A stretch of 42,479 bases of DNA from Aggregatibacter kilianii (GTDB taxonomy: Bacteria > Pseudomonadota > Gammaproteobacteria > Enterobacterales > Pasteurellaceae): NCBI RefSeq assembly GCF_003129965.1, contig NZ_NRCJ01000021.1, forward strand, positions 1 through 42,479, read 5' to 3'. Below the pieces are notes generated by a model. The model was not told the origin of the DNA and ran no database searches. It worked only from the letters and a program-made list of their open reading frames with translations. Below, in pieces: positions 3,708-28,007 of the stretch; position 1 is the stretch's first letter, and every line of letters begins with the position of its first letter. Made by a program: the position numbers and the translations under genes.

Positions 3708-3732
3708 TATTAAAACCTTCTTTATACTAAAT

Positions 3733-5115: not shown

Positions 5116-5119
5116 TATA

Positions 5120-8502: not shown

Positions 8503-8516
8503 AATGTTACTTTCTC

Positions 8517-9278: not shown

Positions 9279-9285
9279 ATATAAA

Positions 9286-10632: not shown

Positions 10633-10636
10633 ATAG

Positions 10637-11179
10637 CTATTCTTCATCCTTTCTGATATCAACTTCGTTTTCTTTAACATGAACTAAAATATGGTATTTA
10701 TGACCAATACCTTTTAGGGTGACTACTTTTTTCCATTCTGTAGCACCAGAATCAGAATAATATGCAATCACTCCAAAATAATTATTTTCCTCTTTTAACT
10801 TAACTTGCGGTAAGGCCTTATATTGTGAAGGTAATAGAGTATAGTCTTGGTGATCAATATAATTTTTGCCCAATACATCACTTAAACTTTCCGTACTTAA
10901 CTGCTCATAATACGCAGATAACAACTTAGAATCCTCACCCAAATAAACTAATTTTAGTTCAATTGGTGAAGGTTGCCCATTTTCATTTTTATTTATGTTC
11001 GGCTCCGCCAACAATGAAATTTGTACTGTAGAAGGCTGATCCAAAGGTCCACCCACTTGAATATCAGGATCTTGAATGACCTTACTTATCTTTGACATTG
11101 TTTGACAACTAGAAAGAAGTAACGCTACAAATAGTGCAGAGACTAATTTTAATGCTAAATTACGGTTGATACAGAACAT
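10637..11179 (-). CDS. tssJ: TssJ, outer-membrane lipoprotein of the T6SS membrane complex
   Basis: TssJ is anchored in the outer membrane and binds the periplasmic end of TssM. The 180-residue protein has a lipoprotein signal with lipobox LSSC (Cys25) after a hydrophobic segment (about 9-22), then a small beta-rich domain with the order typical of the family (QISLLAEPNINKN, then PIELKLVYL). The stop of tagH and the start of tssJ overlap by one base at 11,179, indicating coupled translation. Confidence 0.92.
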   Translation of the reverse strand: MFCINRNLALKLVSALFVALLLSSCQTMSKISKVIQDPDIQVGGPLDQPSTVQISLLAEPNINKNENGQPSPIELKLVYLGEDSKLLSAYYEQLSTESLSDVLGKNYIDHQDYTLLPSQYKALPQVKLKEENNYFGVIAYYSDSGATEWKKVVTLKGIGHKYHILVHVKENEVDIRKDEE

Positions 11180-12468: not shown

Positions 12469-12472
12469 CGAT

Positions 12473-13510
12473 TTACTCCCTGATACTAATTGTTACTTTT
12501 GGTTTCTTGTCTGGCTTACCCACAAAACTCGTCCACCCCAACATTGTATTTTTATCATCTCCTAACTGCATTCCAGTGATCTGTTTGGGTTTAAGCCCCA
12601 ACCTTAGATCCCAAGCAAACTGATCCTTCAACACAAATGATACAAATGTAATTAAAGATAAGTAATTTTCTCCATTAGGTAAAAAAGATAAAAATTGTTT
12701 ACGAGAAAGATTATTTAGCTGAAGTTCAAACTTACCTCCTCGATCAGGATTCCTTTCACCCAAAGTAAAATTCACCCCCAAACAACTACGTCCACTAGGT
12801 GGACGCCCAACCTCTTTTAAAATTCCACCTAAACGATTTTGCTCATCTTCGGAAATCTTAACATATCGAAAACACCACTCTTTTAAGTCAACATCAGGCA
12901 GATCAAAACAATGAGAAACTAAACTTGATATAACTTCAGACGAACGTCCCGGACTTGCCAGCATTCCCGCATAGGCCAACATTTTACTATGATGAATACT
13001 TAAACGATTGCGAGTTTTTTCATGTCCTAACCCAACCAACGAAAACATTCGTTGAGAAAAAACATCAGTTCCCTCATTTCTAAAGTTAATATAATAGCGG
13101 TACTTTCTCCAAATATGATGTAACAATAAAACTAATCTGTGATTAAATAAATTCATAAAGTCAACTAATTTAGTTTCTTTATGTAAATATTCGGTTGCTA
13201 AACTTTCCAAATAATATGTAGGTAATGGAGATTGACTACCGTGTAAACCTAAAAAACTAATCTCTAGGGAATGTTGCCCTTCTTTCGTAGAAAGTAAGTG
13301 TACGATATCACGAATCGGAAACTCTAATCCTGCGGAGGATATGAATCGAATAGGTTCCTTATCCGGTGTTAACGTCAAAGTTTTCGAGGATTCTACATTA
13401 GATAATTTAAAAAGTATTTCAACCAACTGATAAAAACTATAACGTGTTATATCTATTAAATCTGAGTTTTTATTTACATCAGAGCGTGTTGACCCATCTG
13501 AATCGGCCAT
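12473..13510 (-). CDS. tssG: TssG, T6SS baseplate wedge protein
   Basis: TssG pairs with two TssF subunits to form the baseplate wedge. The 345-residue product has the expected features: FPIRDI near residue 75, SFLGLHGSQSPLPTYYLE around 103-120 (the G-x-x-G-x-x-SPLP signature), and the GRSCLGVNFTLGER stretch in the C-terminal half. Length matches the family. The frame starts inside the 3' end of tssF with a 37-base overlap, as seen in other T6SS operons. Confidence 0.93.
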   Translation of the reverse strand: MADSDGSTRSDVNKNSDLIDITRYSFYQLVEILFKLSNVESSKTLTLTPDKEPIRFISSAGLEFPIRDIVHLLSTKEGQHSLEISFLGLHGSQSPLPTYYLESLATEYLHKETKLVDFMNLFNHRLVLLLHHIWRKYRYYINFRNEGTDVFSQRMFSLVGLGHEKTRNRLSIHHSKMLAYAGMLASPGRSSEVISSLVSHCFDLPDVDLKEWCFRYVKISEDEQNRLGGILKEVGRPPSGRSCLGVNFTLGERNPDRGGKFELQLNNLSRKQFLSFLPNGENYLSLITFVSFVLKDQFAWDLRLGLKPKQITGMQLGDDKNTMLGWTSFVGKPDKKPKVTISIRE

Positions 13511-15297
13511 TCATACACCTCCTGATTATCAGTATTAATTATTTTCAACTTATGGAATGAATTCACACTAGCATAAAGAGTAAAAAATTGAGACAACACA
13601 CTTCCAAATAAGAACATATCTCCTTCTGAAGTAAACCCACTTTGCTGAATACATAATGTTGATTGCAATCCTCGAACTGATACACCTTTAAACAATCGAT
13701 CAATTGGAGTCGTCTCAATTGACTGAATAGCATCTAGTTTTTTTTGAGATATCCTTGCATTACGGCGACTATGCCAAGCTGGTAAATCATAAGTTTTCAA
13801 TATTTCCTTTAATGGTTCAATGTCTAGTAAAGATAGATAATTAAGAGAGGAATTAGAGATTAATTTCCAAGCTAATGTGCCATCTAATGTAGGATGTAAA
13901 GGTAATGATGGACGAGTTATATTTCTAAACTGCGTAGAAGAAGGATGCTGATCTGTGCTTACACATATATCACCAATTTTTAACTGTGTAGGTAAATCTC
14001 GATTGGTACAAGTTAGATCTATTGCTACACATTCATTTGATGACAATACCTGAATTTCATCACCTCTTACAAAAGACAAAAAGTGATCAAATCCAGAATG
14101 AAACAGAGCATCTTTTGTTCTTAGACGATAATAAAGTGCGGTACGTCCCTTCATATATTCGACTTGATGTCTGAAACTTTCAAAAGGCTCATAAATACGC
14201 TCTCCACTATTATTCTTTTTACTGAGTGTTATATCTTCTTTATGAACAAAACTAGAAACCTTGTCTACCGAAAAAATTTCATACCAGTCAGGATGTTGGT
14301 GACTACCTTTGACAATATACTCCGTTTTTGTACCATCTAAACGAATATTTTCACTATCATGTTTAAAAAGGTTAATTGCAGGTACACAATGAAGACGTAA
14401 TGTTGACGTACGAACATTAACATCAACGGGCAATGGTAAAGAAAATGACAATTGAAGAGAAAAACTCTTACTTTTAATCTCAGATGATAGTGGGCTGAAT
14501 CCTTTTACATCAAAGAATAAGAAACTCTCAGGAAAACAAAAATATTCCTGCAGAACCCTATACCCCGCATTTGTATGTTTAGGATAGGGTAATATAGCAT
14601 CCTCTCGCCTAAATCCTACCGGAATAAAGCTAATATCCGGAATAGGGTATACAGTCTCATTTATAAACAATTTGGCAGATTGTAAATAATAAGATAACCA
14701 TAAATATAGCTGCTGATTACTATATTCATCAGAACCAAGGTAAAATCTAAGTTTATTTAGATCTAATGTATCAAATGATAATTCAGATTCAGACGAAAAA
14801 TGTATTTCAATTATAGATTTCTCGTTATTATTTGTAGTAGTAATATCTTGGATAGAAAAAGGATTTAACCAAACATCACGACAAGTCTGGAAAGTACAGC
14901 GAACAGAACCATCATCAATTACCGAATTATCTTGATCAATATATGTGGTCGAAATCGGTTTACTTAATAAGTACGTACCCTTTTCAACCTTATCTTGTAA
15001 TTGGCCAACTTTTTCATCAGGATAAAACTCGACAATAGTCATGCTCGGAGTAGGTCTTAAATAATTAGGCCATAGCATATTAATCATGCTATGAGTGAAT
15101 TCAGGAAATTCATCCTCAATTTTTGCCCGTAAATTCCCCGTTAGAAAAGCAAACCCTTCTAGCAAACGTTCTACATCAGGATCAGCACTTTTTTCAGATA
15201 AAAAATTAGCCAAATGAGGCTTTTCAACCGCAAGCTGCTTTCCTAATTCTCGTAAATATTCTAACTCATTTCTAAAATATTTTTCTAATACAGACAT
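13474..15297 (-). CDS. tssF: TssF, T6SS baseplate wedge protein
   Basis: TssF is the largest wedge component and contacts TssG, TssE and VgrG. The frame is open from a TTG at 15,309, but the conserved N-terminus (EKYFRNELEYLRELG) favours the ATG at 15,297, giving 607 residues. Family motifs are clear: DPDVERLLEGFAFLTGNLRAKI (two blocks around 39-65), HSMINMLWPNYLRPTPSM (about 73-90) and an RDLPTQL-like block about two-thirds along. An uptake signal lies within the coding sequence near 14,136. Confidence 0.94.
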   Translation of the reverse strand: MSVLEKYFRNELEYLRELGKQLAVEKPHLANFLSEKSADPDVERLLEGFAFLTGNLRAKIEDEFPEFTHSMINMLWPNYLRPTPSMTIVEFYPDEKVGQLQDKVEKGTYLLSKPISTTYIDQDNSVIDDGSVRCTFQTCRDVWLNPFSIQDITTTNNNEKSIIEIHFSSESELSFDTLDLNKLRFYLGSDEYSNQQLYLWLSYYLQSAKLFINETVYPIPDISFIPVGFRREDAILPYPKHTNAGYRVLQEYFCFPESFLFFDVKGFSPLSSEIKSKSFSLQLSFSLPLPVDVNVRTSTLRLHCVPAINLFKHDSENIRLDGTKTEYIVKGSHQHPDWYEIFSVDKVSSFVHKEDITLSKKNNSGERIYEPFESFRHQVEYMKGRTALYYRLRTKDALFHSGFDHFLSFVRGDEIQVLSSNECVAIDLTCTNRDLPTQLKIGDICVSTDQHPSSTQFRNITRPSLPLHPTLDGTLAWKLISNSSLNYLSLLDIEPLKEILKTYDLPAWHSRRNARISQKKLDAIQSIETTPIDRLFKGVSVRGLQSTLCIQQSGFTSEGDMFLFGSVLSQFFTLYASVNSFHKLKIINTDNQEVYEWPIQMGQHALM

Positions 15298-15305
15298 TTT
15301 TATGC

Positions 15306-15749
15306 TCAAATATCAGCAAGATCTAAATAATAGTGGCGATCATTATCCAAATGCAAACTAAAGACGACTGGAGAACTCATTTCTTCGACTGATAATATTG
15401 CATCAATACGAAAATGTAACAATAAAGGGTTATCTTCATTTACAAGTGGTTGTACATTTACAGAGATAATTCTAGGCTCAAAATCCAAAATACAAGTCTC
15501 GATAACTGCTTGAATCTTACCAACCATATCCATGGTACCTATAGTTGCGTCATTTAAATCTACAATACCCAACGCTGAGGCACTCTGGCAGGCTCCAGGA
15601 TGGGTATTTAATATGTTAAGTAGATTATGTCTAACAGATAAAACCAAATCTCTTAAATGATGGCGCGCAGATAATGATGACTCCTCATTTTGAATTCGCT
15701 CAAATAAGCTGGCAGCGTTTCCTCTATCCCAGCTCAGTAATGCTGCCAT
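15306..15749 (-). CDS. tssE: TssE, gp25-like T6SS baseplate protein
   Basis: TssE is related to phage T4 gp25 and starts sheath polymerisation on the baseplate. The frame is open from 15,779, overlapping tssC, but an AAGGAG site lies before the ATG at 15,749, which gives a 147-residue protein starting MAALLSWDR, a 7-base gap to tssC and a typical length. The gp25/GPW core is recognisable: SLFERIQNEE, HLRDLVLSVRHNLLNILNTHPG and the C-terminal EPRIISVNV strand. Its stop lies 8 bases before the tssF ATG. Confidence 0.92.
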   Translation of the reverse strand: MAALLSWDRGNAASLFERIQNEESSLSARHHLRDLVLSVRHNLLNILNTHPGACQSASALGIVDLNDATIGTMDMVGKIQAVIETCILDFEPRIISVNVQPLVNEDNPLLLHFRIDAILSVEEMSSPVVFSLHLDNDRHYYLDLADI

Positions 15750-15756
15750 TAAAAAC

Positions 15757-17235
15757 TTACTCCTTATCCAAACGACCAACTAAAGACAATTCAAAATTAG
15801 ATCCCATATACTTAAAGTGAGGTCTAACTTTAATAGAAGACAAGTACCAACCTGGATCTCCTGCAACATCAGACACCGAAATTGAAGCACTGCGGAAAGG
15901 TCGACGACTACGAACATCTGCCGGTGGATTCTCTTGATCTGCTACATATTGTTTTAACCAAGTATTTAACTCTTTTTCCAAGTCCCCTCTCTCTTTCCAA
16001 CTACCAATCTGCTCTCTTTGTAACACTTTGATATAATGTGCAATTCTGGTAATCATAAAAGTATAAGGTAACTGTGTGCCTAACTTATAATTTGTTTCAG
16101 CAATTTTTCCCTCTTTTGTATTAGGAAATACTTTCGGTTTTTGCACTGAGTTAGCAGAGAAAAATGCTGCATTATCACTACCTTTACGCATAGTTAACGC
16201 AATAAAACCTTCTTCTGCTAATTCAAATTCACGACGATCAGTAATCAATACTTCTGTTGGAATTTTCGCAACCGTTTGTCCCATTGCCTCATAAAGGTGG
16301 ACTGGCAGATCATAAACTGCTCCACCACTTTGTGGCCCAATAATATTTGCACACCAACGATATTTAGCAAAGCTATCTGTCAAACATGAAGCAAGTAAAA
16401 ATGCACTATTTCCCCACAAGTAATGTTCATGATCCTTACTTACATTTTCCTCATAACCAAAACTTTTAACTGGATTATCCGTTACAGAATAAGGTAAGCG
16501 AGCAAGGAAACGAGATACTGTTAACCCAAGACTGCGAGAGTCCTCAGATTCGCGTAAAGCGCGCCATTTAGTATAAACAGGGCTTTCAAAAACTGATTTA
16601 AGATCTTTAATTGCAGGAAGCTCAGTGTAGCTTTGAACTCCGAAAAATGTTGGCGATACAGAAGAAAGAAAAGGAGCATGCGCCATAGAACCGACAGCAC
16701 TCACATATTGTAACAACTTCATATCAGGTGTTTTAGGGGTAAATTCGTAGTTACCGATTACCGTGCCAATAGGCTCTCCACCGAATTGCCCATAACCGGA
16801 GGAGTAAACATGTTTATAAAAACCAGATTGAACAATCTCAGGAGCAAACTCAAAATCATCAAGCAACTCTTCTTTCGTTGCATGCAATATATTAATTTTA
16901 ATATTCTCACGAAAATCTGTTCTGTCAACCAATAGCTTTAACGAGCGCCAAGAAGACTCTAATTGACGAAACTTTTCATGATGCAAAATCTCATCTACTT
17001 GGATACTTAACTTACGATCTATCTCTGCAATCATTCTATCAATTAATAGCTTATTGATAGGTTCTTCCTGACTACCTGTCATTAAAATATTTGAAATAAA
17101 AGCAGCTACACCCTGTTTAGCAACATCATACCCTTCACTATCAGAAGAAATTCGTGTTTGGGCCATAATCTCATCAAGTAAAGATGACTGTTGAACTTCG
17201 GTTTCCTGAACTTGTTGTTTTACAGCACGTGCCAT
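15757..17235 (-). CDS. tssC: TssC, large subunit of the contractile sheath
   Basis: TssC forms the sheath with TssB and drives the Hcp tube outward on contraction. The 492-residue protein is full length and shows many invariant TssC blocks: FRQLESSWRSLKLLVDRTD, NILHATKEELLDD, YSSGYGQFGGEPIGTVIGNYEF and LARLPYS, each near its expected place. It starts 37 bases after tssB with an AAAGGA-type ribosome-binding site, and with tssB it is likely the most strongly translated part of the operon. Confidence 0.96.
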   Translation of the reverse strand: MARAVKQQVQETEVQQSSLLDEIMAQTRISSDSEGYDVAKQGVAAFISNILMTGSQEEPINKLLIDRMIAEIDRKLSIQVDEILHHEKFRQLESSWRSLKLLVDRTDFRENIKINILHATKEELLDDFEFAPEIVQSGFYKHVYSSGYGQFGGEPIGTVIGNYEFTPKTPDMKLLQYVSAVGSMAHAPFLSSVSPTFFGVQSYTELPAIKDLKSVFESPVYTKWRALRESEDSRSLGLTVSRFLARLPYSVTDNPVKSFGYEENVSKDHEHYLWGNSAFLLASCLTDSFAKYRWCANIIGPQSGGAVYDLPVHLYEAMGQTVAKIPTEVLITDRREFELAEEGFIALTMRKGSDNAAFFSANSVQKPKVFPNTKEGKIAETNYKLGTQLPYTFMITRIAHYIKVLQREQIGSWKERGDLEKELNTWLKQYVADQENPPADVRSRRPFRSASISVSDVAGDPGWYLSSIKVRPHFKYMGSNFELSLVGRLDKE

Positions 17236-17272
17236 AGTCTGTTATCCTTTTTACTTAGAATTTTACTAATAC

Positions 17273-17770
17273 TTACTTATCACTTACCAAATTAAGTTCT
17301 TTCAAAAGCTGTTCTCTTGACTCATCATTTTCCAATAACTCAGCTAAACGAGCCCGAAACGCCGGAACATTGCCTAATGGACCTTTTACAGCGGTTAAAG
17401 CCTCACGTAGCTCTAACAGTTTTTTTAACTCAGGTACTGCATTTACAATGTTATCAGGAGAAAAATCACTCAGAGAACTAATACCTAAATTTACATTTAA
17501 CTCTTCATCCTCTTTTTCCGACAACTTATTAGGTACATTAATGTTCAATTTGATATCCATTTCGCCCATTACAGATGAGAAGGTATTTTTATCAATTGAA
17601 ACCATTGAACGCTCTTCAATCGTTGTATCTTCTGTTCGACCTTTCATGTCTCCCACAACCAGAACATTAAGAGGCAGCTCAACCTCTGCAATCTGTCCTT
17701 CAGTTGCTGGTACATACTTAATATTAATTCTTTCTTTAGGTGCCACAGAACCTTCTTTTTGCTTACTCAT
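17273..17770 (-). CDS. tssB: TssB, small subunit of the contractile sheath
   Basis: TssB partners TssC in the sheath. The 165-residue product starts SKQKEGSVAPKERINIKYV and has the conserved LPLNVLVVGDMKGR strand near residue 31 and the C-terminal ALTAVKGPLGNVPAFRARL helix that contacts neighbouring subunits. It is the first gene of the operon; a clear AGGAG site sits seven bases before its ATG, and a good sigma-70-like promoter lies about 60 bases upstream (17,828-17,856). Confidence 0.96.
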   Translation of the reverse strand: MSKQKEGSVAPKERINIKYVPATEGQIAEVELPLNVLVVGDMKGRTEDTTIEERSMVSIDKNTFSSVMGEMDIKLNINVPNKLSEKEDEELNVNLGISSLSDFSPDNIVNAVPELKKLLELREALTAVKGPLGNVPAFRARLAELLENDESREQLLKELNLVSDK

Positions 17771-17827
17771 AGAGTAATCTCCTCAAATTACAAGTTGTCT
17801 TTACAAAATTAAACACGGATACTAAGG

Positions 17828-17869: not shown

Positions 17870-18230
17870 TCCTCAATTAACTACAAAAAACACATTCCGA
17901 ATGACCACACTTTGATCCCCATAGCAGCGGACACATGCTAGTTAATATTCCTTTGTATTTCAATATAATTTCAAAATTTATCAGCATTAGTTAATGAGCT
18001 AACGTAGTATTTTACATTCAAATTAAGAAAAACAAAGTAAAACGCATACACTTACTATTATTAGGGATACACACAATGAAATATAGCTAATTTTTAATTA
18101 TATATCATGGTGTTATTAATTTTTATTGCGAATATTCTCTATATCCTCAAACAATGCTTTATGTTACAACTATATTATTATCAATCAGAAAAATGATAAA
18201 TTCCAAATTTTTAAGTATATCTATTGTAAT

Positions 18231-18258
18231 TTGATAAAATTTGCTAGATACTTATACA
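18231..18258 (+). promoter_or_regulatory. Candidate hcp promoter
   Basis: TTGATA (18,231-18,236), a 16-base spacer and TATACA (18,253-18,258) form a plausible sigma-70 promoter pointing at hcp. It would give a leader of more than 100 bases containing the inverted repeat noted in this region. AT-rich DNA yields many such matches. Confidence 0.35.
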
Positions 18259-18377
18259 AGGCTTTTAATGTGTTGATTATAAAACAGATAAAAATCTTAC
18301 ACTAGTTTGATTAATTTAAGCATTAAAAGGCTACATTCCAGAGTTTCACATCCAAATTGTTAAAATAGGAGAAAAGC

Positions 18378-18896
18378 ATGCCAACCCCATGTTATGTATC
18401 AATCACTGGTAAAACCCAAGGCGAAATTACTTCTGGCGCATTTACAGCTGAATCAGTAGGTAACATTTTCGTACAAGGTCATGAAAATGAAATGCTTGTT
18501 CAAGAAGTTAAACATGTTATTGAAGTGCCAACAGATCCACAGTCCGGTCAACCGTCTGGTCAACGTGCACATAAGCCATTAAAACTTACTGTTGCGTTAA
18601 ATAAAGCTGTTCCTATGCTTTATAATGCCCTAGCATCAGGTGAAATGTTACCTAAAGTTGAATTAAAATGGTACCGCACTTCTGTTGAAGGCAAACAAGA
18701 ACACTTCTTCACAACATCGTTAGAAGATGCAACAATTGTTAGCATTGACTTAAAAATGCCTCATGCTCAAGATCCAACTCAACGTGAGTTTACTCAATTG
18801 TTAGAGTTATCTTTAGCTTACCGTAAAATCAATTGGGAGCACACTTCAGCAGGAACTTCCGGTGCTGATGACTGGCGCAACCCTCTCGAAGCTTAA
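18378..18896 (+). CDS. hcp: Hcp (TssD), T6SS tube protein
   Basis: Hcp hexamers stack into the tube propelled by the sheath, and some small effectors travel in its lumen. The 172-residue protein has the family N-terminus (CYVSITGKTQGEITSG), the loop with HKPLKLTVALNKAVPMLYNAL, and the C-terminal LELSLAYRKINWEH strand, all canonical. A strong AGGAG site lies just upstream. It stands alone on the plus strand with its own terminator, allowing expression far above that of the divergent tss operon. Confidence 0.97.
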   Translation: MPTPCYVSITGKTQGEITSGAFTAESVGNIFVQGHENEMLVQEVKHVIEVPTDPQSGQPSGQRAHKPLKLTVALNKAVPMLYNALASGEMLPKVELKWYRTSVEGKQEHFFTTSLEDATIVSIDLKMPHAQDPTQREFTQLLELSLAYRKINWEHTSAGTSGADDWRNPLEA

Positions 18897-18993: not shown

Positions 18994-19794
18994 TTAGTTA
19001 TAACCAGCCTCTGTCAGTTTGTTTATAATTTCTTCATAAAGAACCTTCATTTTTTGATCACTATTTTTTAAAGAATTTTTTGACATTTTCAACAGTCTGG
19101 AACTATATAACTTAGTATTTTTTTCTTTATCCATTATATATAACAGAATTTCAGGATTAATTTCTGCATCTTCAAAAACGGTATATCCTACATTGTCTTT
19201 TGTACTAAAATTAGCATTATAGCTTAACAATAATTCAATTTTATTTCTAATATCATTGAGATATTCCTCTCTAGACCACCTGCTACGAAGATGCGTAGAT
19301 TTTACAACAACATTCATTGGGTAGGTTGCATACAAATGTTTCTTTCCATCAGAGTTAATATAGACATTACTCGGATCTGCGCCATACTCAAGTAACATTT
19401 TCATATAGTCTATCGGCAATCTTTCCGCCGCAAAGGTTAGGGGGAGATAATAAATCTCTCTCTTTTGTTTTTTAGAAAAAACTTTAGAAACCAAATTTGG
19501 ATCCGCTTTATGTTGAAGAAGCAGCTTTGCAATATCAAATCAATTATCCAAAAATACGGAATACATTAAATAGGTAAAACCGGTCTTATCCTTTGATAAT
19601 GCATTTACATCAGTGTCTTCTGCTAATAACTGTTCTACACGCTTTTTATCATTTCGATAAATGGCCTCGCCCATCTCCAAACGCTCACCTGTAAAATACT
19701 CTTCCGCCGGGAAACCCTGATTTTTAGCCATGTCATTGGCGTAGATATTTATGCAATTACATAATAGAAAGAGTGACAATAAAATTAGCTTCAT
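18994..19794 (-). pseudogene. Ankyrin-repeat immunity-like gene broken by one stop codon
   Basis: Two same-frame pieces (19,540-19,794, 84 residues; 18,994-19,539 in continuous frame) are separated only by a TGA at 19,540-19,542. In the near-identical copy at 22,141-22,917 the same codon is CGA (Arg), so one C-to-T change broke this gene. The product would be about 266 residues, with a signal peptide (hydrophobic segment then IYAND) and ankyrin repeats (ADPNLVSKV, EYGADPSNVY). A TTG at 19,492-19,494 could restart translation, but that fragment would lack the export signal. The C-terminal part differs from the intact copy. Confidence 0.85.
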
Positions 19795-20850
19795 TATTTT
19801 CCTTTCAAACTCTATTTCAATAGAGCGAGCCTAGTAATTGATATTATAGCGCTTTTTAGGTTGATAATTTTTCTGATTTTCTAGATTTTTCTGAACCTGA
19901 GGAGGTGTTTCTGGTGGCCATTTAACCCCTTTTTTAATTAAGAAATCTCTTACCTTTTCCTCATTTCTAAGCGTTTCCTCAATAAGTGAAGTATCTCTAA
20001 ACTTATCTCCCCATATAGTCTTCCCTTCCTCAATTAATTTCTTAGACTGGATACTATCTTCAATATTCGTATAAATCAAATAAGGAACAGTTAGTCCATT
20101 ACGTCCAGTAACATTTATATCTGCGCCTCGCTCTAAAATATATAATGTATTTTTAGCTCCAACATATGCTGTTTCAATAACTAAGGGACTACCCTCTTTA
20201 TAAGAATTAATTTCCGCTCCATAATCAATAAGTAGTTTAAATTTTTCATGATCAACATCATTAGTTACCGTAAAAATAATCGGGATATTCATAAATCGCT
20301 TTTGTTTATAATTCGGATCTAATCCCCCTTTCAATAACGCTTCTAATATCTGAGGCGGTGCACCGTAGTATAATACAGCTGTCATCAATGGGGAATCATT
20401 TGTATTTTCTCCTTGTTCCTGATCAGGATCGGCACCATTCTTAGTTAAAATAGTAATGATCTTATAATAGTCTTCATTATTTCCATTTAAATCTTCAGAA
20501 ATCCGAACGATAGGTAACATCAGCAGAGACATATTCTTTTTACTCAATGTATGCAAATCGGTATGTGGCGCTAATTCTTCCACCTTTTTCACATCTTTTT
20601 GCCAAATAGCCTCTGCTAATTCTTTTTGATTTTTTCCATAAAAATCATTAACTGAATAGGTCATAAAAAATCCTCTGTTAAAATAGAATAGGATAATAAG
20701 AATGAGGATAAACATAATGACTATTTTCTTTATCATGCTATTTTCTCAAGATTTTATTTAGAATATTTAATTGACATTAAATAAAAAAGTGCGGTCACTT
20801 CTCTAAGTGTTTTTTCTTTATGAAATACACCGAAAATTTTGACCGCACTT
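19373..20850 (-). repeat. Copy 1 of a 1.48-kb direct duplication in the immunity array
   Basis: This block matches 22,496-23,980 base for base over long stretches. It covers the first part of the broken ankyrin gene, the whole 301-residue gene and the uptake-signal hairpin upstream. Homology starts abruptly at GGATCTGCGCCATACTC inside the first gene and ends at the outer uptake signal of the hairpin. The segment from the first gene is almost identical between copies; the 301-residue gene has diverged more. Confidence 0.85.
19831..20736 (-). CDS. Membrane-anchored ankyrin-repeat protein, putative T6SS lipase immunity (copy 1)
   Basis: The 301-residue protein begins with a single hydrophobic anchor (about residues 5-19, after MIKK), so it is probably held in the inner membrane with the rest in the periplasm. 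Ankyrin-type units follow: LTKNGADPDQ near 95-104, LLKGGLDPNY, LIDYGAEINS and LERGADINVTGRNGLT. The C-terminus is charged and ends around KWPPETPPQ and KKRYNINY. It is a close paralogue of the protein at 22,954-23,859. Ankyrin proteins in this setting are inferred to bind and block a VgrG-borne toxin; no direct evidence is in the sequence. Confidence 0.8.
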   Translation of the reverse strand: MIKKIVIMFILILIILFYFNRGFFMTYSVNDFYGKNQKELAEAIWQKDVKKVEELAPHTDLHTLSKKNMSLLMLPIVRISEDLNGNNEDYYKIITILTKNGADPDQEQGENTNDSPLMTAVLYYGAPPQILEALLKGGLDPNYKQKRFMNIPIIFTVTNDVDHEKFKLLIDYGAEINSYKEGSPLVIETAYVGAKNTLYILERGADINVTGRNGLTVPYLIYTNIEDSIQSKKLIEEGKTIWGDKFRDTSLIEETLRNEEKVRDFLIKKGVKWPPETPPQVQKNLENQKNYQPKKRYNINY

Positions 20851-20852
20851 TA
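20784..20852 (-). terminator. Uptake-signal hairpin between immunity blocks (1)
   Basis: AAAAAAGTGCGGTC (about 20,784-20,796) and GACCGCACTTT (20,841-20,851) are inverted uptake signals able to form a long hairpin with poly-T on both sides. Paired uptake signals commonly act as terminators in Haemophilus-type genomes. It lies between the remnant at 20,871-21,062 and the gene starting at 20,736. Confidence 0.75.
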
Positions 20853-20870
20853 CAAGATTATGAAACTAAT

Positions 20871-21062
20871 CTAAGACAAAATTTCTATTTTATTTTCAAG
20901 AAAATCTTCAGAAGATATATCAAGTTTAATTTCTAAGTCAATTTTTAATTTATCGATTCCATAAAACTATTAAGATAATCTACCATCGGAATTTTCTTAG
21001 CAGGATATAATTCATCTTTTAACTCAACTAAATCTCCATCTATACTAGTCGTAAAATAAACC
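20871..21062 (-). pseudogene. Frameshifted 3' remnant of an unidentified gene
   Basis: Minus-strand reading gives two adjoining protein-like frames. The upstream one reads ...TTSIDGDLVELKDELYPAKK... and stops at 20,945-20,947. The other frame continues from about 20,963 as YGIDKLKIDLEIKLDISSED... to a TAG at 20,871-20,873. Joined across one frameshift they make a sensible acidic C-terminus of about 60 residues. No start codon is left; the 5' part appears to have been replaced by the ankyrin gene at 21,067-21,903. I do not recognise the family. It could be a displaced immunity gene or the tail of an old effector. Confidence 0.55.
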
Positions 21063-21066
21063 AGCC

Positions 21067-21903
21067 TTACTTGTAACCCAGCTCTCTTAACCGCCGTATT
21101 ATTTCTTTTAAATTTTCATCATTAGGATTAGCTTTTAATAGTTTTTCTGAACTTCTTAATAATTTTTCACCATAAATACGATGATCTGCGCCTTTATCCA
21201 TTAGATATAGAATAATTTCACGATTCATTAATGAAAATTCAACAACACTACGACCTGTTGCACCAATCGAATTAATATCTGCTCCATGTTGTAGTAATAA
21301 TTCCACTCTTGCTTTTATATCATTCATATAATCTTCCCGCGACCAACGGTTTAAAATATAGGAAGAACGTACTGCCGCATTTATCGGATACATTGCATAA
21401 AGTGGTATTTCTCCTTTTTCATCTCTATAAGCATAATTCGGGTTAGCTCCGTATTTCAATAATAATTCCATGTATTCTATCGGCTTATCATCCGATACAA
21501 AAGTTAGAGGAAGATAGTAAACATATCTCTTCTTATTTTCTGATAATACTTTTGACACTTGATTCGGATCTGCATTATGTTGAAGTAGTAACTCTACAAT
21601 CTTAAAACGGTCATCTAAAAAGAGTGAATATAGCAAATAAGTCACTCCATCATTATTACTTGATAACTCATTGACATTAAGACCATTTTTTAACAATTTT
21701 TCTACTTTTACTCTATCATTCTGATGAATAGCTTTCGCCATTTCAAGTCGTTTACCTTCAAAATATTTTTCCGGTAAAAGTCGTTCATTTCTTTCTGAAT
21801 CATTTGTATAAGCATTCATAGATGCTCCTAATATTAATATGCATAAAGTTATTTTTATATTCTCCAGTAAAAATCTTATAAACTTTAACTGATTATTTTG
21901 CAT
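21067..21903 (-). CDS. Exported ankyrin-repeat protein, putative immunity paralogue
   Basis: The 278-residue protein has a signal peptide (hydrophobic segment about 17-33 ending NAYTND) and ankyrin units LLQHNADPNQVSK, LLKYGANPNY and LLQHGADINS, with a MDKGADHRIYG block before the end. The C-terminal half resembles the intact gene at 22,141-22,917 and the middle (YPIN, SREDYMNDI) resembles the broken gene at 18,994-19,794, so these genes have exchanged segments. Upstream lies a truncated lipoprotein start (21,885-21,986). Function is inferred from the array it sits in. Confidence 0.78.
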   Translation of the reverse strand: MQNNQLKFIRFLLENIKITLCILILGASMNAYTNDSERNERLLPEKYFEGKRLEMAKAIHQNDRVKVEKLLKNGLNVNELSSNNDGVTYLLYSLFLDDRFKIVELLLQHNADPNQVSKVLSENKKRYVYYLPLTFVSDDKPIEYMELLLKYGANPNYAYRDEKGEIPLYAMYPINAAVRSSYILNRWSREDYMNDIKARVELLLQHGADINSIGATGRSVVEFSLMNREIILYLMDKGADHRIYGEKLLRSSEKLLKANPNDENLKEIIRRLRELGYK

Positions 21904-21986
21904 AACGTCCCCTTAACCAGCAATTTTTGTGGCTCAAAAAAACTATCTAGTGAATAACTTGTGGGCATAAACCATAAGTGTTTCAT
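21885..21986 (-). pseudogene. Truncated start of a lipoprotein ankyrin gene
   Basis: A 33-codon frame reads MKHLWFMPTSYSLDS, then FFEPQKLLVK. It lines up with the first residues of the intact lipoprotein gene at 24,023-24,814 (MKHLWL..., then MPAGYPLDGFSEPQKELVK) except that an in-frame deletion of about 30 bases has removed the hydrophobic core and lipobox. It then runs into the start of the gene at 21,903 and stops. It is the scar of a lost paralogue. Confidence 0.75.
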
Positions 21987-22052
21987 TACTTTTTCCTAAC
22001 CGCTTTAATATTCATACTGAACCATTACAACATATTTCATCTTCTCTAAGAT

Positions 22053-22124
22053 AAAAAAGTGCGGTCAAATTTCCCGGTGTTTTTCATAAAGAAAAAACAC
22101 TTAGGAAAATGACCGCACTTTTTG
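22053..22124 (-). terminator. Uptake-signal hairpin between immunity blocks (2)
   Basis: AAAAAAGTGCGGTCA (from 22,053) and TGACCGCACTTTTT (ending near 22,123) are inverted uptake signals. Pairing continues inward (GGTGTTTTT against AAAAAACACTTAGG), giving one of the longest hairpins in the window. It lies 12 bases past the stop of the gene at 22,141-22,917, a natural terminator position. Confidence 0.8.
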
Positions 22125-22140
22125 CATTTTCACGAGGAAG

Positions 22141-22917
22141 TTAGTAACCCAACTCAGATAAGCGTTTAATTATTTCGGCCTGATAAGGTTTTCCTACCGG
22201 TCCACTTTTAAAAATATCTCTATAAAATCTCAACACGCGTTTTCCATAAATGCGATGATCGGCACCTTTATCCATTAGATAGACAACAATCTCAGGGTTA
22301 CTCGTTGCAGATTCAACAACACTTTCATCCATTGCGCCAATCGCATTAATATCTGCGCCATGAGCCAGTAATAAATCAACCCTTGCCTTAATATCGTTCA
22401 TATAATCACTTCTTTCCCATTTTTTCAAAATATAAGCGGAACGAACTGCCGCATTAAGTGCCATTTTTCCCTTTTTATCAACATAAGCTACCGATGGATC
22501 TGCGCCATACTCAAGTAACATTTTCATATAGTCTATCGGCAATCTTTCCGCCGCAAAGGTTAGGGGGAGATAATAAACATCTCTCTTTTGTTTTTTAGAA
22601 AAAACTTTAGAGACCAAATTTGGATCCGCTTTATGTTGAAAAAGCAGCTTTGCAATATCAAATCGATTATCCAAAAATACGGAATACATTAAATAGGTAA
22701 AACCGGTCTTATCCTTTGATAATGTATTTACATCAGTGCCTTCTGCTAATAACTGTTCTACACGCTTTTTATCATTCCGATAAATGGCTTCGCCCATCTC
22801 CAAACGTTCACCTGTAAAATACTCTTCCGCCGGAAAACGCTGATTTTTAGCCGTGTCATTGGCATAGATATTTATGCAATTACATAATAGAAAGAATGAC
22901 AATAGAATAAATCTCAT
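22141..22917 (-). CDS. Exported ankyrin-repeat protein, putative immunity (intact copy)
   Basis: The 258-residue protein has a signal peptide (hydrophobic segment about 3-18; LLCNC could alternatively be read as a weak lipobox) and ankyrin units: LLAEGTDVNTLSKDKTG, LLFQHKADPNLVSK, LLEYGADPSVAY and LLAHGADINAIG. It starts 36 bases after the 301-residue gene, so the two form a unit. Its first 140 or so residues are almost identical to the broken copy at 18,994-19,794, while the rest looks like the protein at 21,067-21,903. The mosaic suggests recombination between paralogues. Confidence 0.8.
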   Translation of the reverse strand: MRFILLSFFLLCNCINIYANDTAKNQRFPAEEYFTGERLEMGEAIYRNDKKRVEQLLAEGTDVNTLSKDKTGFTYLMYSVFLDNRFDIAKLLFQHKADPNLVSKVFSKKQKRDVYYLPLTFAAERLPIDYMKMLLEYGADPSVAYVDKKGKMALNAAVRSAYILKKWERSDYMNDIKARVDLLLAHGADINAIGAMDESVVESATSNPEIVVYLMDKGADHRIYGKRVLRFYRDIFKSGPVGKPYQAEIIKRLSELGY

Positions 22918-23980
22918 TATTTTCCTTTCAAACTCTATTTCAATAGAATAAGCCTAGTAATTGGTATCATAGCGCTTTTTAGGCTGATAATTTTTTTGAT
23001 TATCTAAATTTTTCTGAATCTGAGGTGGTGTTTCCGGTGGCCATTTAACCCCCTTTTTAATTAAAAACTCTCTTACCTTTTCCTCATCTCTAACGGTTTC
23101 CTCGATAAGTGAAATCTCTCTAAATTTATCTCTTGATGCGATCTTCCCTTCTTCAATTAACTTTTTAGATTGAATACGATCTCTAATATTCGCATAAATT
23201 AAATAGGGGACAGTGAGCCCATTATGCCCAGTAACATTGATATCTGCACCGCGCTCTAAAATATATAATGTATTCTTAGGACCAAGAGATGCAGTTTCAA
23301 TAACTAGGGGAATACCTTCTTTAGAAGAATTAATGTCTGCACCATAATCAACTAATAGTTTAAATTTTTCATGATGAATATCATTAGTTACCGCGAAAAT
23401 AATCGGGATATTCATAAATCGTTTTCGTTTATAATTTGGATTCAATCCACCTTTTAATAACGCCTCTAATATTTGCGGTGGCGCACCTGCGTATAATATA
23501 GCGGTTGTCAATGGAGAATCATCTTTATTTTTTCCTTGTGCCTGATCCGGATCTGCACCATTCTTAGTTAAAATGGTAATAATTTGATAATAGGCTTCAT
23601 TATTTCCATTTAAATCTTCAGAAATCCGAACGATAGGTAACATAAGGAGCGACATATTTTTTTTGCTTAATGTATGCAAATCAGTATGTGGCGCTAATTC
23701 TTCCACCTTTTTCACATCTTTTTGCCAAATAGCCTCTGCTAATTCTTTTTGATTTTTTCCATAAAAATCATTAACTGAATAGGTCATAAAAAATCCTCTA
23801 TTAAAATATAATAGGGTAATAAGAATGAGGATAAACATAACGATTATTTTCTTTATCATGCTATTTTCTCAAGACCTTATTTAGAATATTTAATTGACAT
23901 TAGACATTAAATAAAAAGTGCGGTCTGTTTTCTAAGTGTTTTTTATTTATGAAAAATATCAAAAATTTTGACCGCACTTT
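22496..23980 (-). repeat. Copy 2 of the 1.48-kb direct duplication
   Basis: Partner of 19,373-20,850. It also carries a small tandem GACATTA duplication just before the uptake-signal hairpin that the other copy lacks. The right-hand end of homology falls at the outer uptake signal; sequence beyond it is unrelated. Confidence 0.85.
22954..23859 (-). CDS. Membrane-anchored ankyrin-repeat protein, putative T6SS lipase immunity (copy 2)
   Basis: This 301-residue protein matches the one at 19,831-20,736 along its full length: same N-terminal anchor (hydrophobic segment about 5-19), same first 70 residues almost unchanged, then scattered substitutions in the ankyrin units (LTKNGADPDQAQG, LLKGGLNPNY, LVDYGADINS, LERGADINVTGHNG). 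Substitutions cluster in the middle and C-terminal parts, as expected if specificity differs between copies (inference). It lies after a terminator-like hairpin, so it probably has its own promoter. Confidence 0.8.
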   Translation of the reverse strand: MIKKIIVMFILILITLLYFNRGFFMTYSVNDFYGKNQKELAEAIWQKDVKKVEELAPHTDLHTLSKKNMSLLMLPIVRISEDLNGNNEAYYQIITILTKNGADPDQAQGKNKDDSPLTTAILYAGAPPQILEALLKGGLNPNYKRKRFMNIPIIFAVTNDIHHEKFKLLVDYGADINSSKEGIPLVIETASLGPKNTLYILERGADINVTGHNGLTVPYLIYANIRDRIQSKKLIEEGKIASRDKFREISLIEETVRDEEKVREFLIKKGVKWPPETPPQIQKNLDNQKNYQPKKRYDTNY

Positions 23981-23982
23981 TT
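23913..23982 (-). terminator. Uptake-signal hairpin between immunity blocks (3)
   Basis: AAAAAGTGCGGTC (about 23,913-23,925) and GACCGCACTTTTT (ending near 23,982) are inverted uptake signals forming a long hairpin 40 bases past the lipoprotein gene. It would end the vgrG-lipoprotein transcript and isolate it from the duplicated genes downstream. Confidence 0.75.
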
Positions 23983-24022
23983 GTATGGAGCGCCAGAGTT
24001 AACTCAAGGTTCAACATTAGAA

Positions 24023-24814
24023 TCATTGCTTAGGAGGCCACTCAATACCTTTTTCAATCATAATTGATTTAATTTTTCGTACCGTATCTAAATCACCTTC
24101 TATCGCTTTCAAATCTCCCTTAGTCTTTCCGCTTTTAATACGAGTAATACTTTCTTGCAAAGATTTTTCTTTATTAAAAACTGACATTGCAAATGTTCTT
24201 TTATTAAATTTATTTTCACTATGAACACTAGCACCCATTGACACTAAATAATAAGAAACTTCAGGAGCAGTAATTACTGCAACATGAGCAGGAGTTTCTC
24301 CTGCAGTTGCTGTTGTTTTTGCATCTATATCTGCCCCATATTTTACTAATAATTTTACAGAGCTTAATTTATTGTCATTTAATACATCAAAAATAATTGG
24401 AGCAGATTCTAATTCATAATTCGGATTTAACCCGCCATCTAACATAGAATTCAACAATAACGAATTCTGTTGTATCAGTGCCATGTTTAATGGCGATTCA
24501 TCAAATCCTCCTCGTTTATCAAATGGTGCACCTGCTCTAACTAACTCTGTGATTATTTGTAAGTGTGGGGTAATTTTATTACCTTTTAAATCATCCAATG
24601 CTTCGTAAATTGCTGCAGTAAGTAAAGGAATACTTTTATCTGACATCAAGCTCAAATCTGTTTTTACTGAAAGTTCCTTCACTTTCTCTACATTACCATC
24701 TTTAATAGCTTTAACCAGCTCTTTTTGTGGTTCAGAAAAACCATCCAGTGGATAACCTGCGGGCATACAACCTCCAAACAAAAATAAAATAAAAATTAAC
24801 CATAAGTGTTTCAT
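24023..24814 (-). CDS. Ankyrin-repeat lipoprotein, likely cognate immunity protein of the VgrG lipase
   Basis: The 263-residue protein has a lipoprotein signal with Cys16 after LFLFGG, so it is probably a periplasm-facing lipoprotein. Ankyrin-like units include LVRAGAPFDKRGGFDESPLNMAL, MLDGGLNPNYELESAPI, LVKYGADIDAK and the TPAHVAV block; the C-terminus ends EKGIEWPPKQ, resembling the 301-residue paralogues. It starts 10 bases after the vgrG stop with a GAGGGA site, so effector and lipoprotein are made together. That arrangement, plus a periplasmic address matching a lipase, is the standard T6SS immunity pattern; the pairing is inferred. Confidence 0.8.
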   Translation of the reverse strand: MKHLWLIFILFLFGGCMPAGYPLDGFSEPQKELVKAIKDGNVEKVKELSVKTDLSLMSDKSIPLLTAAIYEALDDLKGNKITPHLQIITELVRAGAPFDKRGGFDESPLNMALIQQNSLLLNSMLDGGLNPNYELESAPIIFDVLNDNKLSSVKLLVKYGADIDAKTTATAGETPAHVAVITAPEVSYYLVSMGASVHSENKFNKRTFAMSVFNKEKSLQESITRIKSGKTKGDLKAIEGDLDTVRKIKSIMIEKGIEWPPKQ

Positions 24815-24824
24815 TACTTTCCCT

Positions 24825-27800
24825 CTAACGAATAGAGCCGATTATACCTCTAAACTCACCTTCTAAAGCAGGAATAACTTTATCCATACCATGATCATCA
24901 ACAGAATTCCTAATTGGAAGAATCCAATGTTCTGTTGTTTGTTTTGGTAGAGGATAACGAGTAGTATAAACGGCATCTGGCATTCCCTTAGCCAAAAGAT
25001 AATCCCCAACATTATTTATCGGTGCCGATGAGAAAGACACTCCATCAAACTCTTGAAAGCGAGTCAAGATCTCTCCTTTAACGTAATATGCTTCAATTTC
25101 ACTTGGCACCACATTTTTTACTGTAGAGTCATTTAACCCGGCAGAGTTAAAAATTGTCGCTTTAGCCCCAGAAACTCTGGAAGCAGCAGAAGCTAGTCCG
25201 CCGCCAAGAGAATGCCCGACAAACTCAACATTCGCAGCATTTCCAGAATCTTTTATCTTTTGACCGATTGCTAGTGCTCTTTCATAATAATCAGACTTCA
25301 AACCAACTCCTTGTCTAAAATTATTTTTCCAGTCCACTAATTCTTCAGGACGCGTACCTCTGAAGACAATGCTTGGTTTCATATCATCACCAAATACTGC
25401 TGGGTCAGGAACAAAAAAACGAGCTTGAAAATCTTGATTTTTAGGAAAATCCTTTGTAATCAATCCATACTTACTTAGTTCTTCTGGGTTATCACTAATT
25501 TCTTTCCATCCCACTGGCGGCTCACTTCCAACAGGGTTATAAACAGCTTTCGCAAGTGCTGCCTTCTGCAATGCCTTACGTTGCCGATCTAATTCATTGG
25601 CTAATTCATGTTTTCCTTCTTGATGTAATCTCTCAATTTCACTGGAAGCCGCTTGCCATGCTTCGGCAAGCTGTTCCGGCGTCAAGTCAGGAGATAAAAG
25701 AGCAAGCATAATCGCAACAATGTTATTATTCACCATGCCATTATTAATATAAACACTCTCCTGCCCATTTATCGTCACCGTCCCACTACCCGCTATCATC
25801 ACACTCCCTTCTTTATCCAACGAAATCGACGCGCCTCCCGCAACCAACGCAATTCCGCCACCTTGTGACGACACTATCAATGTCTTCTCCGCCGTCAGGC
25901 TTTGATTTATCCCCACTTGGTTGATACTGTTCTGCGATAAAGAAACCAGTTCCGCTTCCAACACATGCTTATCACGGTTCCCTCGTACGGTTATATCCTG
26001 ATTTTTCGTCACCGACTCGGCGTGTTCATTAATCACCAGCATACTCTTATTATTTATCACATCTGTCGTCATGTCTTTTTGCGCCTGAAAATCTAAACGC
26101 TGCGCGCCCGGGGAGTCTTCCATCATCACCCCGTTATAACCACCTCCCTTATATGTTTGCGACATGATGTGCATTTGCGTTTTATTCGCCGGTAATCCCG
26201 CCGGGGACATATTATTGGCATGATACGCCCTGCCCGTCACTATCGGTTGGTCCGGGTCGCCATCCAAAAAGTTCACCACCACTTCATGCCCCACCCGCGG
26301 TATCGCCATCATCCCCCAGCCTTTACCTGCCCAAGGTTGGGTCACTCTCACCCAGCATGAACTGTGGTCATCAAATTTCCCTTCTCTGTCCCACAAAAAT
26401 TGCAAACGAATGCGTCCGAAATTATCCGTGTAAATCTCTTCCCCTTTCGGCCCCGTTACGATTGCCATTTGTGGTCCTTCAATCCGTGGCTTGGTACGTT
26501 GTGACGGACGCCAGGTCTGGTCGCTTGGAATAAACTCAAAATTCGCGGTTAAGGTCGTAGGATTGCCGCCCGCCTCTAATTCTGAAGATTGCGGTTGCTG
26601 CCCTTCATAACGCACGCTCACCGGTTGCCATAACGTATTTAAACTTGCTTTCGGGTGCCCTTCTAATGTAAACAGTTTGCCTACCTGTAAATTCGGACTA
26701 TTACTAATGCCCTCGCCTAAATGCGCATCTTGTCTTAAACCGTCTAAGCGGTATTGCGTATATTGCTTGCCTCTGCCATCTTTAAACCGCCCCGGAAAAT
26801 CATAATGTTCATATCCCGTTCCGCTTTCAAAGGAGGCCGCCCAATTCGGCTTTTTGAATGTGTAATCCTTCAGTTGTACGCGCGAAGGACGTAGTTGCTC
26901 GCGCCGTCTAAATGAGGTGATACATTTTTCCTGTAATTGGGCATTTTTATTCAGGTTATAAGGCAGGCTTACCGATTGCACTAACGTTGCAACATCATCC
27001 GTTAAGATTAAACGGTGTTGACCGTCGCGATGCTCAAAGTAATAAAATATACCTTCCTCTGCCGTAAGACGTTGCAGAAACTCATAATCCGTCTCACGAT
27101 ACTGTACGCAAAACTCACGCTCAGAATGGGGATGACGTAAAATAAAGGCATAGTCCATCACTTTATTTTCGGCAAAAAGCGTTGAAAGAATGCTTTCAAT
27201 ATCTTTCTGCTGAAAGATTCTTGAATTACGTCGTAAACCCGCCCGCCATAAATCCGGACGAATCGTTAAATTGTAATGTGTTAATCGAAATCCGCTGTCG
27301 CCTTGCTCAAAATCCGACACCATGCCTGAAAAGGTTTGCTGCAATACGCCATCCTGCCAGATGGATAACACGGCATGATTATCTAAGACCTGAGCCGGGT
27401 TAATGGCTGAATCGGCACTGCTTACCGCAACGTCTAACGCATCTAATTCATTATAGTGTGAAGAAAAGTGAAAACTGATGACGGAAAAGGTCGCCGGCGG
27501 TAAATTGCCCGCTTCCAGCGTAAATTGCAATCCGCTTGGTTTGCGGTTAAAGAGTGCGGTGAGTAATTCTAACGGTGAGGAAAATGCTGACGGTGTATCA
27601 TCACTTATTGGCTTGAGTCCCTTACTGACTTGGTTGCTCACACTTTTGACTCGGTGAATAACGCCTTCCGCCATCGAAACCGCTTGCTTAGCTTGTGAAA
27701 CCGTTTGTTGTACTTTAGCGACATTTGCAGCCAACTTCTCATTGCCGGTTAAACCCGCAATAGAGCCAACAGTACCGGCAAGTGAATCAATAGATGTAGA

Positions 27801-28007
27801 GGAAAGACCTTGCTGCACAACATTTTTTACATTATTCACCGTATTTTTTGCTGTTGATACTGCATCCGAAGCCTTAGCAACTTTATCCTGGACTTGATGA
27901 ATTTTCCCTGCTAACTCATCAGCTCCGACTAAATCTGCAGCGCTACCAATTTGACTTGCTGATGAATTAATTTTATTAAGTTCTGATAACAACTGATCTT
28001 TAGACAT
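24825..28007 (-). CDS. vgrG: Evolved VgrG (TssI) with duplicated N-terminal helical extension and C-terminal lipase domain
   Basis: VgrG trimers tip the Hcp tube. Residues about 150-757 hold the gp27/gp5-like spike, with landmarks GRIRLQFLWDREG, WVRVTQPWAGKGWG and NFLDGDPDQPIVTGR and a beta-helix ending near VTINGQESVYINNG. Residues 1-145 are an extra alanine- and valine-rich helical extension containing two related repeats (about 20-68 and 80-131). Residues 758-1060 form a class-3-lipase-like alpha/beta hydrolase: FRGT (882-885), GHSLGGG with nucleophile Ser933, probable His1039 in DDHGMDK; the acid is unclear (Glu979 or Asp988). The target is probably membrane phospholipid in the periplasm (inference). 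It has a good AAAGGA site. Confidence 0.93.
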   Translation of the reverse strand: MSKDQLLSELNKINSSASQIGSAADLVGADELAGKIHQVQDKVAKASDAVSTAKNTVNNVKNVVQQGLSSTSIDSLAGTVGSIAGLTGNEKLAANVAKVQQTVSQAKQAVSMAEGVIHRVKSVSNQVSKGLKPISDDTPSAFSSPLELLTALFNRKPSGLQFTLEAGNLPPATFSVISFHFSSHYNELDALDVAVSSADSAINPAQVLDNHAVLSIWQDGVLQQTFSGMVSDFEQGDSGFRLTHYNLTIRPDLWRAGLRRNSRIFQQKDIESILSTLFAENKVMDYAFILRHPHSEREFCVQYRETDYEFLQRLTAEEGIFYYFEHRDGQHRLILTDDVATLVQSVSLPYNLNKNAQLQEKCITSFRRREQLRPSRVQLKDYTFKKPNWAASFESGTGYEHYDFPGRFKDGRGKQYTQYRLDGLRQDAHLGEGISNSPNLQVGKLFTLEGHPKASLNTLWQPVSVRYEGQQPQSSELEAGGNPTTLTANFEFIPSDQTWRPSQRTKPRIEGPQMAIVTGPKGEEIYTDNFGRIRLQFLWDREGKFDDHSSCWVRVTQPWAGKGWGMMAIPRVGHEVVVNFLDGDPDQPIVTGRAYHANNMSPAGLPANKTQMHIMSQTYKGGGYNGVMMEDSPGAQRLDFQAQKDMTTDVINNKSMLVINEHAESVTKNQDITVRGNRDKHVLEAELVSLSQNSINQVGINQSLTAEKTLIVSSQGGGIALVAGGASISLDKEGSVMIAGSGTVTINGQESVYINNGMVNNNIVAIMLALLSPDLTPEQLAEAWQAASSEIERLHQEGKHELANELDRQRKALQKAALAKAVYNPVGSEPPVGWKEISDNPEELSKYGLITKDFPKNQDFQARFFVPDPAVFGDDMKPSIVFRGTRPEELVDWKNNFRQGVGLKSDYYERALAIGQKIKDSGNAANVEFVGHSLGGGLASAASRVSGAKATIFNSAGLNDSTVKNVVPSEIEAYYVKGEILTRFQEFDGVSFSSAPINNVGDYLLAKGMPDAVYTTRYPLPKQTTEHWILPIRNSVDDHGMDKVIPALEGEFRGIIGSIR

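Follow-up and report, generated by a model that had tools for sequence, protein, structure and literature searches.

The window, a 42,479-nucleotide stretch of DNA from Aggregatibacter kilianii (contig C13 of a 2.69-Mb genome), contains a type VI secretion system (T6SS) vgrG locus, and homology of the predicted proteins supports the conclusion that the segment between its hcp and vgrG genes (18,994 to 24,814) is an immunity array, a somewhat unusual one of a known kind. We think it probable that this is an array of Tle6-type immunity genes in which one family (C) consists of orphans, that it grew by copying and recombination, and that the three hairpins lying among its genes are terminators that were copied along with them and confer no special uptake advantage. 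The way in which T6SS loci gather orphan immunity genes is an open question, and here a single array displays duplication, chimerism, and scars. By homology the array comprises five intact ankyrin genes (L, B1, C1, C2, and B2), one broken gene (C3), and two scars, all 3′ of one effector gene. All of its genes lie on the minus strand, and each hairpin is an inverted pair of DNA uptake signals (AAGTGCGGT). The order of transcription, beginning with the effector gene, is as follows.

24825..28007, minus strand: vgrG with a C-terminal Tle6-like lipase tip (TIGR03361, E 1.5e-180; tip matching 7ubz_B, E 3.6e-37); without AAGTGCGGT
24023..24814, minus strand: L, ankyrin lipoprotein and probable cognate immunity protein (Tli-like); Ank_2; FGGC lipobox-like motif by pattern; 7ubz_A, E 8.9e-14
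23916..23979: hairpin 3, lying between L and B1 and resembling a terminator; gene-strand fold −20.9 kcal/mol, z −5.4
22954..23859, minus strand: B1, ankyrin protein with an N-terminal hydrophobic segment by eye; Ank_2; 76% identical to B of Aggregatibacter actinomycetemcomitans SL7469 888
22141..22917, minus strand: C1, ankyrin protein with an N-terminal hydrophobic segment by eye, a probable orphan immunity protein; Ank_2, E 6.1e-14
22057..22120: hairpin 2, reversed relative to hairpins 1 and 3; fold −35.5 kcal/mol, z −8.4
21913..21992, minus strand: scar, 5′ end of an L-type gene; matches L at 84% over 62 bases and at 100% over 23 bases, on either side of a deletion
21067..21903, minus strand: C2, ankyrin protein; 67% and 63% identical to proteins of another genome of the family (G042), against 58% to C1
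20864..20957, minus strand: scar, 3′ remnant of a gene found intact in this genome's second vgrG array (contig C5, L068 8844 to 9278); 80% over 95 bases, with a 28-residue protein match
20787..20850: hairpin 1, corresponding to hairpin 3 within the copy of the B block; fold −27.1 kcal/mol, z −5.9
19831..20736, minus strand: B2, second copy of B; 86% identical to B1 and 84% to B of A. actinomycetemcomitans SL7469 888
18994..19794, minus strand: C3, broken C gene and chimera with one in-frame TGA; N-terminal piece 92% identical to C1, C-terminal piece 55%

A first-pass annotation made from the letters of this DNA had described four intact exported-type ankyrin genes of two families, and the open reading frames of B1, C1, C2, and B2 bear this out. 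It had also named a lipoprotein relative or its scar, and both are present, the intact L and the 5′ scar; the single broken gene (C3) and the three large hairpins of 64-base inverted AAGTGCGGT pairs were likewise found.

A VgrG lipase and its probable ankyrin immunity genes

The tip of the VgrG matched the T6SS lipase effector of Enterobacter cloacae (Tle, or "Tle6") with GHSLGGG in the alignment, and L, which adjoins vgrG directly downstream, matched the Tli chain of the same structure (7ubz_A, among 265 ankyrin chain matches). Since the VgrG tip and L thus match both chains of a solved Tle/Tli complex, the immunity array that the first-pass annotation had proposed gains support. The E. cloacae pair is named Tle6 in PMC11470151, where such lipases are described as always paired with an ankyrin immunity protein. 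The present locus resembles that pair, as described there, in the lipase family and in the adjoining ankyrin lipoprotein; it is unlike it in that the lipase is the tip of a VgrG and is followed by several ankyrin genes, from two families, along with scars and a copied block. Once injected, the VgrG would attack membranes from the periplasm with its Tle6-like lipase, and L, a lipoprotein, and B, apparently anchored in the membrane, would be the inherited immunity proteins to it. Both the immunity function and the cell location of L and B are predictions, with export judged from sequence alone.

All five intact array proteins match ankyrin repeats. L is related to B, with 34% identity to B1, and the C proteins form a separate family. 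The order vgrG, L, hairpin, B is kept in A. actinomycetemcomitans SL7469 888 (genome G016, locus stretch L008), the relative with the same vgrG locus, where vgrG is 85%, L is 71%, and B is 84% (to B2) or 76% (to B1) identical. In comparisons that took one genome per species, L/B relatives were found in 1 and C relatives in 3 of 139 other genomes of the family; among 369 genomes of the class, our own included, no C relatives were found outside the family (E 1e-20), beyond those of the window itself. A scan of named genomes gave at least one locus among the matches listed. Two C genes in G042 stand directly behind a VgrG whose tip is another lipase, related only weakly (7ubz_B, E 1.4e-7), and in G085 a C gene stands behind what by eye are lipase fragments. 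Because C relatives follow another VgrG lipase in G042, C1 to C3 are probably orphan immunity proteins here, directed against a second lipase type, and they would shield the cell from the lipases of its neighbors. The accumulation of such protection had been suggested in the first-pass annotation, and the arrangement in G042 supports it indirectly.

Copying, chimerism, and scars

Positions 22,496 to 23,980 and 19,373 to 20,851 form a repeat of 1,485 bases at 90% identity, interrupted by a single gap. The right end of this repeat (20,851/23,980) is exactly the outer edge of hairpins 1 and 3, though the sequence beyond differs. The left end lies inside C, where matches per 60 columns fall from 58 to between 22 and 36 and identity drops near 22,490/19,367. 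As this sharp drop falls within C, C3 is a chimera. Homology to A. actinomycetemcomitans distinguishes the two copies, in that the B1 copy continues through hairpin 3 into L and vgrG whereas the B2 copy ends at hairpin 1, which argues that B2 is the copy that moved. The array has grown through copying and recombination, in that the block of hairpin, B, and C was duplicated to another position, C3 became a chimera, and other immunity genes were reduced to scars. A further scar was seen in A. actinomycetemcomitans (L008, 10,903 to 11,180), where B is followed by a sequence like the 3′ end of an L-type gene and then a hairpin (157 bases, 73% identical to the end of L plus hairpin); that species may also have lost an immunity gene after B.

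The T6SS orphan arrays of Vibrio cholerae, as described in PMC5361080, are similar mosaics, with a row of immunity genes 3′ of one effector gene and alleles apparently from elsewhere. That account reports no specific integration site and breakpoints that are not confined to special sites. It argues against duplication in V. cholerae, unlike the present locus, where local duplication is evident and uptake-signal hairpins separate the blocks. The available part of a paper on the T6SS of A. aphrophilus notes no such arrays.

Uptake-signal hairpins at gene ends

Each of the three 64-base hairpins consists of two extended uptake signals facing each other. All three fold far better than shuffled sequences on both strands (z −5.4 to −8.4) and have T-runs behind them on the gene strand. 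Hairpin 2 is identical to hairpin 1 at 57 of 64 positions as the reverse complement and at 44 of 64 directly. In A. actinomycetemcomitans a hairpin with a decayed first arm lies at the same place between L and B, so hairpin 3 was probably inherited.

Inverted pairs of this kind are found throughout the genome. Across the whole genome, 28 pairs have spacings of 0 to 12 bases between the signals and 68 have spacings of 31 to 60; spacings of 13 to 30 were counted in a 400-kb sample only, which holds 33 inverted pairs with spacings up to 80 bases, 22 of them at 21 to 28. The pairs have preferred sizes genome-wide of 26, about 39 to 44, about 55, and 64 bases, as if set by the sharing of AT tracts between two signals. 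Intergenic gaps in the sample were typed with a simple gene model based on open reading frames. With gaps of at least 64 bases and frames of at least 60 amino acids, inverted pairs occurred in 11 of 33 convergent, 12 of 94 tandem, and none of 38 divergent gaps; with frames of at least 90 amino acids the counts were 10 of 30, 15 of 89, and none of 35. The idea that hairpins are special to arrays by position was rejected, since pairs are common at gene ends (23 of 127 nondivergent gaps). The first-pass annotation had said that its proposal of exchange would fail if paired signals were just as frequent at ordinary gene ends, and this count largely shows them to be so.

Inverted uptake signals are known as transcription terminators (PMC12616744, PMC2397512), and the role has also been called contentious (PMC2346458). 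As far as these sources describe the terminators of Pasteurellaceae and Neisseria, the array hairpins share with them the inverted pair at the gene 3′ end and the strong stem, and the difference seen here is the 64-base form in which two extended signals meet. The array hairpins would likewise work as terminators at the 3′ ends of modules, as elsewhere in the genome, and would have been copied with the modules. The probable inheritance of hairpin 3, the placement of pairs at gene ends, and the strong folds support terminators that travel with modules, with termination itself predicted from the folds and T-runs.

Several observations weigh against the combined reading of lipase immunity genes and copied terminators. 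On the protein side, designed ankyrins outscore 7ubz_A for L, which makes the 7ubz_A match weak by itself; for C1, 7ubz_A is absent from the best 60 of 229 ankyrin matches; the assignment of C1 to C3 as orphan immunity proteins to lipases is an argument from position; and the TGA in C3 could be a sequencing error. On the hairpin side, the three hairpins went unreported in a consensus terminator scan, whose loop limit of 3 to 8 bases is the probable reason. According to PMC10210955, inverted repeats that act as terminators in Neisseria have spacers no longer than 20 bases, and the signal cores in the array hairpins are 46 bases apart, though their arms pair further inward. Finally, the copied B block stops exactly at a hairpin edge despite differing flanking sequence, and the likeness of the array hairpins to T6SS hairpins at other loci exceeds expectation. 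Neither of these last two points follows from terminators alone.

Possible recombination handles, DNA uptake, and the T6SS setting

The hairpins might instead be short portable homologies (64 to 72 bases, with two arms each), so that recombination between one hairpin and another joins unrelated genes at hairpin edges and reassorts immunity modules, both inside a T6SS array and from one array to another, wherever the DNA comes from. We regard this as unlikely, and it is nevertheless the alternative that fares best. Besides the block edge, the inversion of hairpin 2 relative to hairpins 1 and 3 would fit it. The first-pass annotation had asked whether breakpoints fall at uptake signals more often than at random positions, and the answer depends on the distance allowed: of 24 homology ends, 6 come within 20 bases of a hairpin where random placement would give 1.62 (P 0.004), but only 3 of the 24 come within 5 bases (P 0.10), the ends are not independent, and conserved hairpins terminate alignments by themselves. 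The 24 ends exclude the junction of B and C1, which was below the identity filter, and the ends of the vgrG fragment on contig C5, which fell outside the filter or the stretch. Moreover, several junctions lie inside genes, and the junction of B and C1 relative to A. actinomycetemcomitans, both ends of the L scar, and the chimera point between C1 and C3 are all away from hairpins.

The second vgrG array of the host genome offers a comparison. It occupies L068 7,700 to 16,000 on contig C5 (L068 being positions 54,754 to 74,753), and it contains a duplicated small gene (93% DNA identity; membrane-like by eye), a DUF4176 gene, an orphan vgrG tip that matches the upstream vgrG at 99% over 474 bases, and, besides one decayed hairpin, three made of inverted uptake signals; the vgrG there contains a run of unread bases. 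Suitable gaps in the two arrays, counted by hand, carry pairs in 6 of 10 cases against the 23 of 127 above (P 0.006), one of the C5 pairs (L068 7755) lying at the border with a neighboring gene cluster. With the copied hairpin dropped the count is 5 of 9 (P 0.018); the window alone gives 3 of 4 (P 0.025), and the window without the copy 2 of 3 (P 0.09).

Similarity between hairpins gave mixed results. When a hairpin of the C5 array was searched against nine whole genomes, with 40 candidates scored per genome in each such search, the first eight nonself matches were all in vgrG arrays of two genomes: three in our own C13, two in our own C5, and two on C52 and one on C32 of A. actinomycetemcomitans, some of them decayed. 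Rank 9 was a contig with Sel1 proteins and a weak Rhs-like end (below the Pfam cutoff), rank 10 lay beside a VasX-type effector of G017, and ordinary genes, as judged by eye, followed from rank 11. With hairpin 2 as the query, however, only the first three nonself matches were T6SS hairpins, followed by a mixture in which C52 of A. actinomycetemcomitans came again eighth. Two control hairpins drew other groups of matches. For one of them, a hairpin of C20, a T6SS contig with Sel1/Rhs, was the eighth nonself row and hairpin 2 the sixteenth; for the other, the first known T6SS-array hairpin was the 30th. Similarities of control hairpins, most of whose matches were not viewed in genomic context, reach 96%, equal to those in the T6SS group, so similarity alone is not exceptional. 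In random draws from 46 of the 68 genome hairpins (4 of 68 to 78 bases were dropped and 18 others left out), sets reaching the similarity of the T6SS set numbered 1 per 20,000 when unmatched, 22 when drawn from a low-GC pool, and 7 when matched for length. Matching for both length and GC raised this to 182 of 20,000, from a pool of 16 that includes the six T6SS hairpins.

Thus, with one of two T6SS queries, hairpins of unlinked T6SS arrays in two species are closer to each other than to the remaining hairpins of the genus. The similarity of T6SS hairpins between loci appears comparable to what inherited hairpins may keep between species. These hints favor hairpins that move with modules, and they allow a role as handles without showing it. 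If the hairpins are passengers, they are useful markers for tracing module movements; if they are junctions, they would tie natural competence to the spread of immunity. A bolder version, in which the T6SS arrays of the genus carry their own hairpin lineage, at once terminators, uptake signals, and recombination handles passing modules between unlinked arrays and species as a cassette system without a dedicated recombinase, seems to us improbable.

Less probable again is the hypothesis of the first-pass annotation, that paired uptake signals cause immunity cassettes to be preferentially taken up and exchanged by natural transformation. Both signals of each hairpin do fit the extended motif with 0 to 2 mismatches, and all six exact signals of the array sit in hairpins. 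The block end at the hairpin edge, the excess of homology ends within 20 bases of hairpins, the 6 of 10 gaps with pairs in the two arrays, and the likeness of hairpins across unlinked T6SS loci speak for it as well. PMC10210955 proposes sharing of effector-immunity clusters via uptake sequences in Neisseria; its account of the vgrG clusters of Neisseria subflava describes duplicated immunity genes downstream of vgrG with inverted uptake-sequence repeats among them, some of them predicted terminators. The present array is like those clusters in these respects and unlike them in its family, its signal (the uptake signal sequence [USS]), its longer hairpins, its lipase and ankyrin content, and the measured similarity of hairpins between arrays. 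However, according to PMC2397512 a single signal suffices in Neisseria and inverted repeats leave transformation unchanged.

The numbers also stand against preferential uptake. The genome holds 2,298 uptake signals in 2,687,710 bases (0.855 per kb). The array has 6 signals against about 5 expected (P 0.38), with 6 against about 4 in its intergenic DNA (P 0.21) and none against 2.5 inside its genes (P 0.08). Among 580 overlapping windows of equal size in the 400-kb sample, with a mean of 4.9 signals, 41% hold at least 6. Enrichment of the array was rejected, its density being average. The counts of the first-pass annotation were correct (6 in the array, 4 in bases 1 to 18,377, and none in vgrG) and the enrichment that they implied was not, as it is depletion of the tss stretch (4 signals against about 15.7 expected; Poisson P 0.0005) that produces the contrast. 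Three inverted pairs in one window of this size are uncommon (2 of the 580), partly because one pair is a copy made with the B block. At the loci of C relatives, signals of the same type number one in G042 and none in G098 per 20 kb each, and two in 8 kb in G085. Fourteen vgrG stretches of G015, G016, and G017 (L057 and L070 to L082) include four with one pair and none with more, a raw count without a background for those genomes. With average density, pairs that are ordinary features of gene ends, a hairpin between L and B that is shared with the relative, and several junctions away from hairpins, the claim that blocks are bounded by uptake signals and so preferentially swapped is not supported. 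The main numerical argument for exchange fails, and that hypothesis is left improbable. The hairpins, taken as copied terminators, would supply uptake signals at average density.

A mobile palindromic repeat (MITE- or REP-like) inserting at gene ends is hardly credible as the nature of the hairpins, although their number (33 pairs in the 400-kb sample, about 220 per genome by extrapolation) and the more than 90% likeness of some at unlinked places might suggest it, since their ends are uptake-signal cores, their sizes appear to follow the signal motif, and the closest matches of one hairpin (C2:61677) are 87 to 88% identical, one each in G019, G020, and G021, as inherited sites would look (flanks not compared). 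Two other hairpins 4 kb apart on our own contig C22 (42,932 to 43,000 and 47,094 to 47,164) are 96% identical, which suggests another local duplication with hairpins.

The rest of the T6SS locus lies on the far side of the array from vgrG.

18378..18896, plus strand: hcp, convergent with the array (TIGR03344, E 2.3e-61)
189..17770, minus strand: T6SS core genes for TssM, TssA, VasI, TssH, TssK, TagH, TssF, and the large and small sheath subunits (NCBIfam; all nine scanned open reading frames matched)

The depletion of uptake signals in this T6SS core stretch (1 to 18,377) is as might be expected of acquired DNA.

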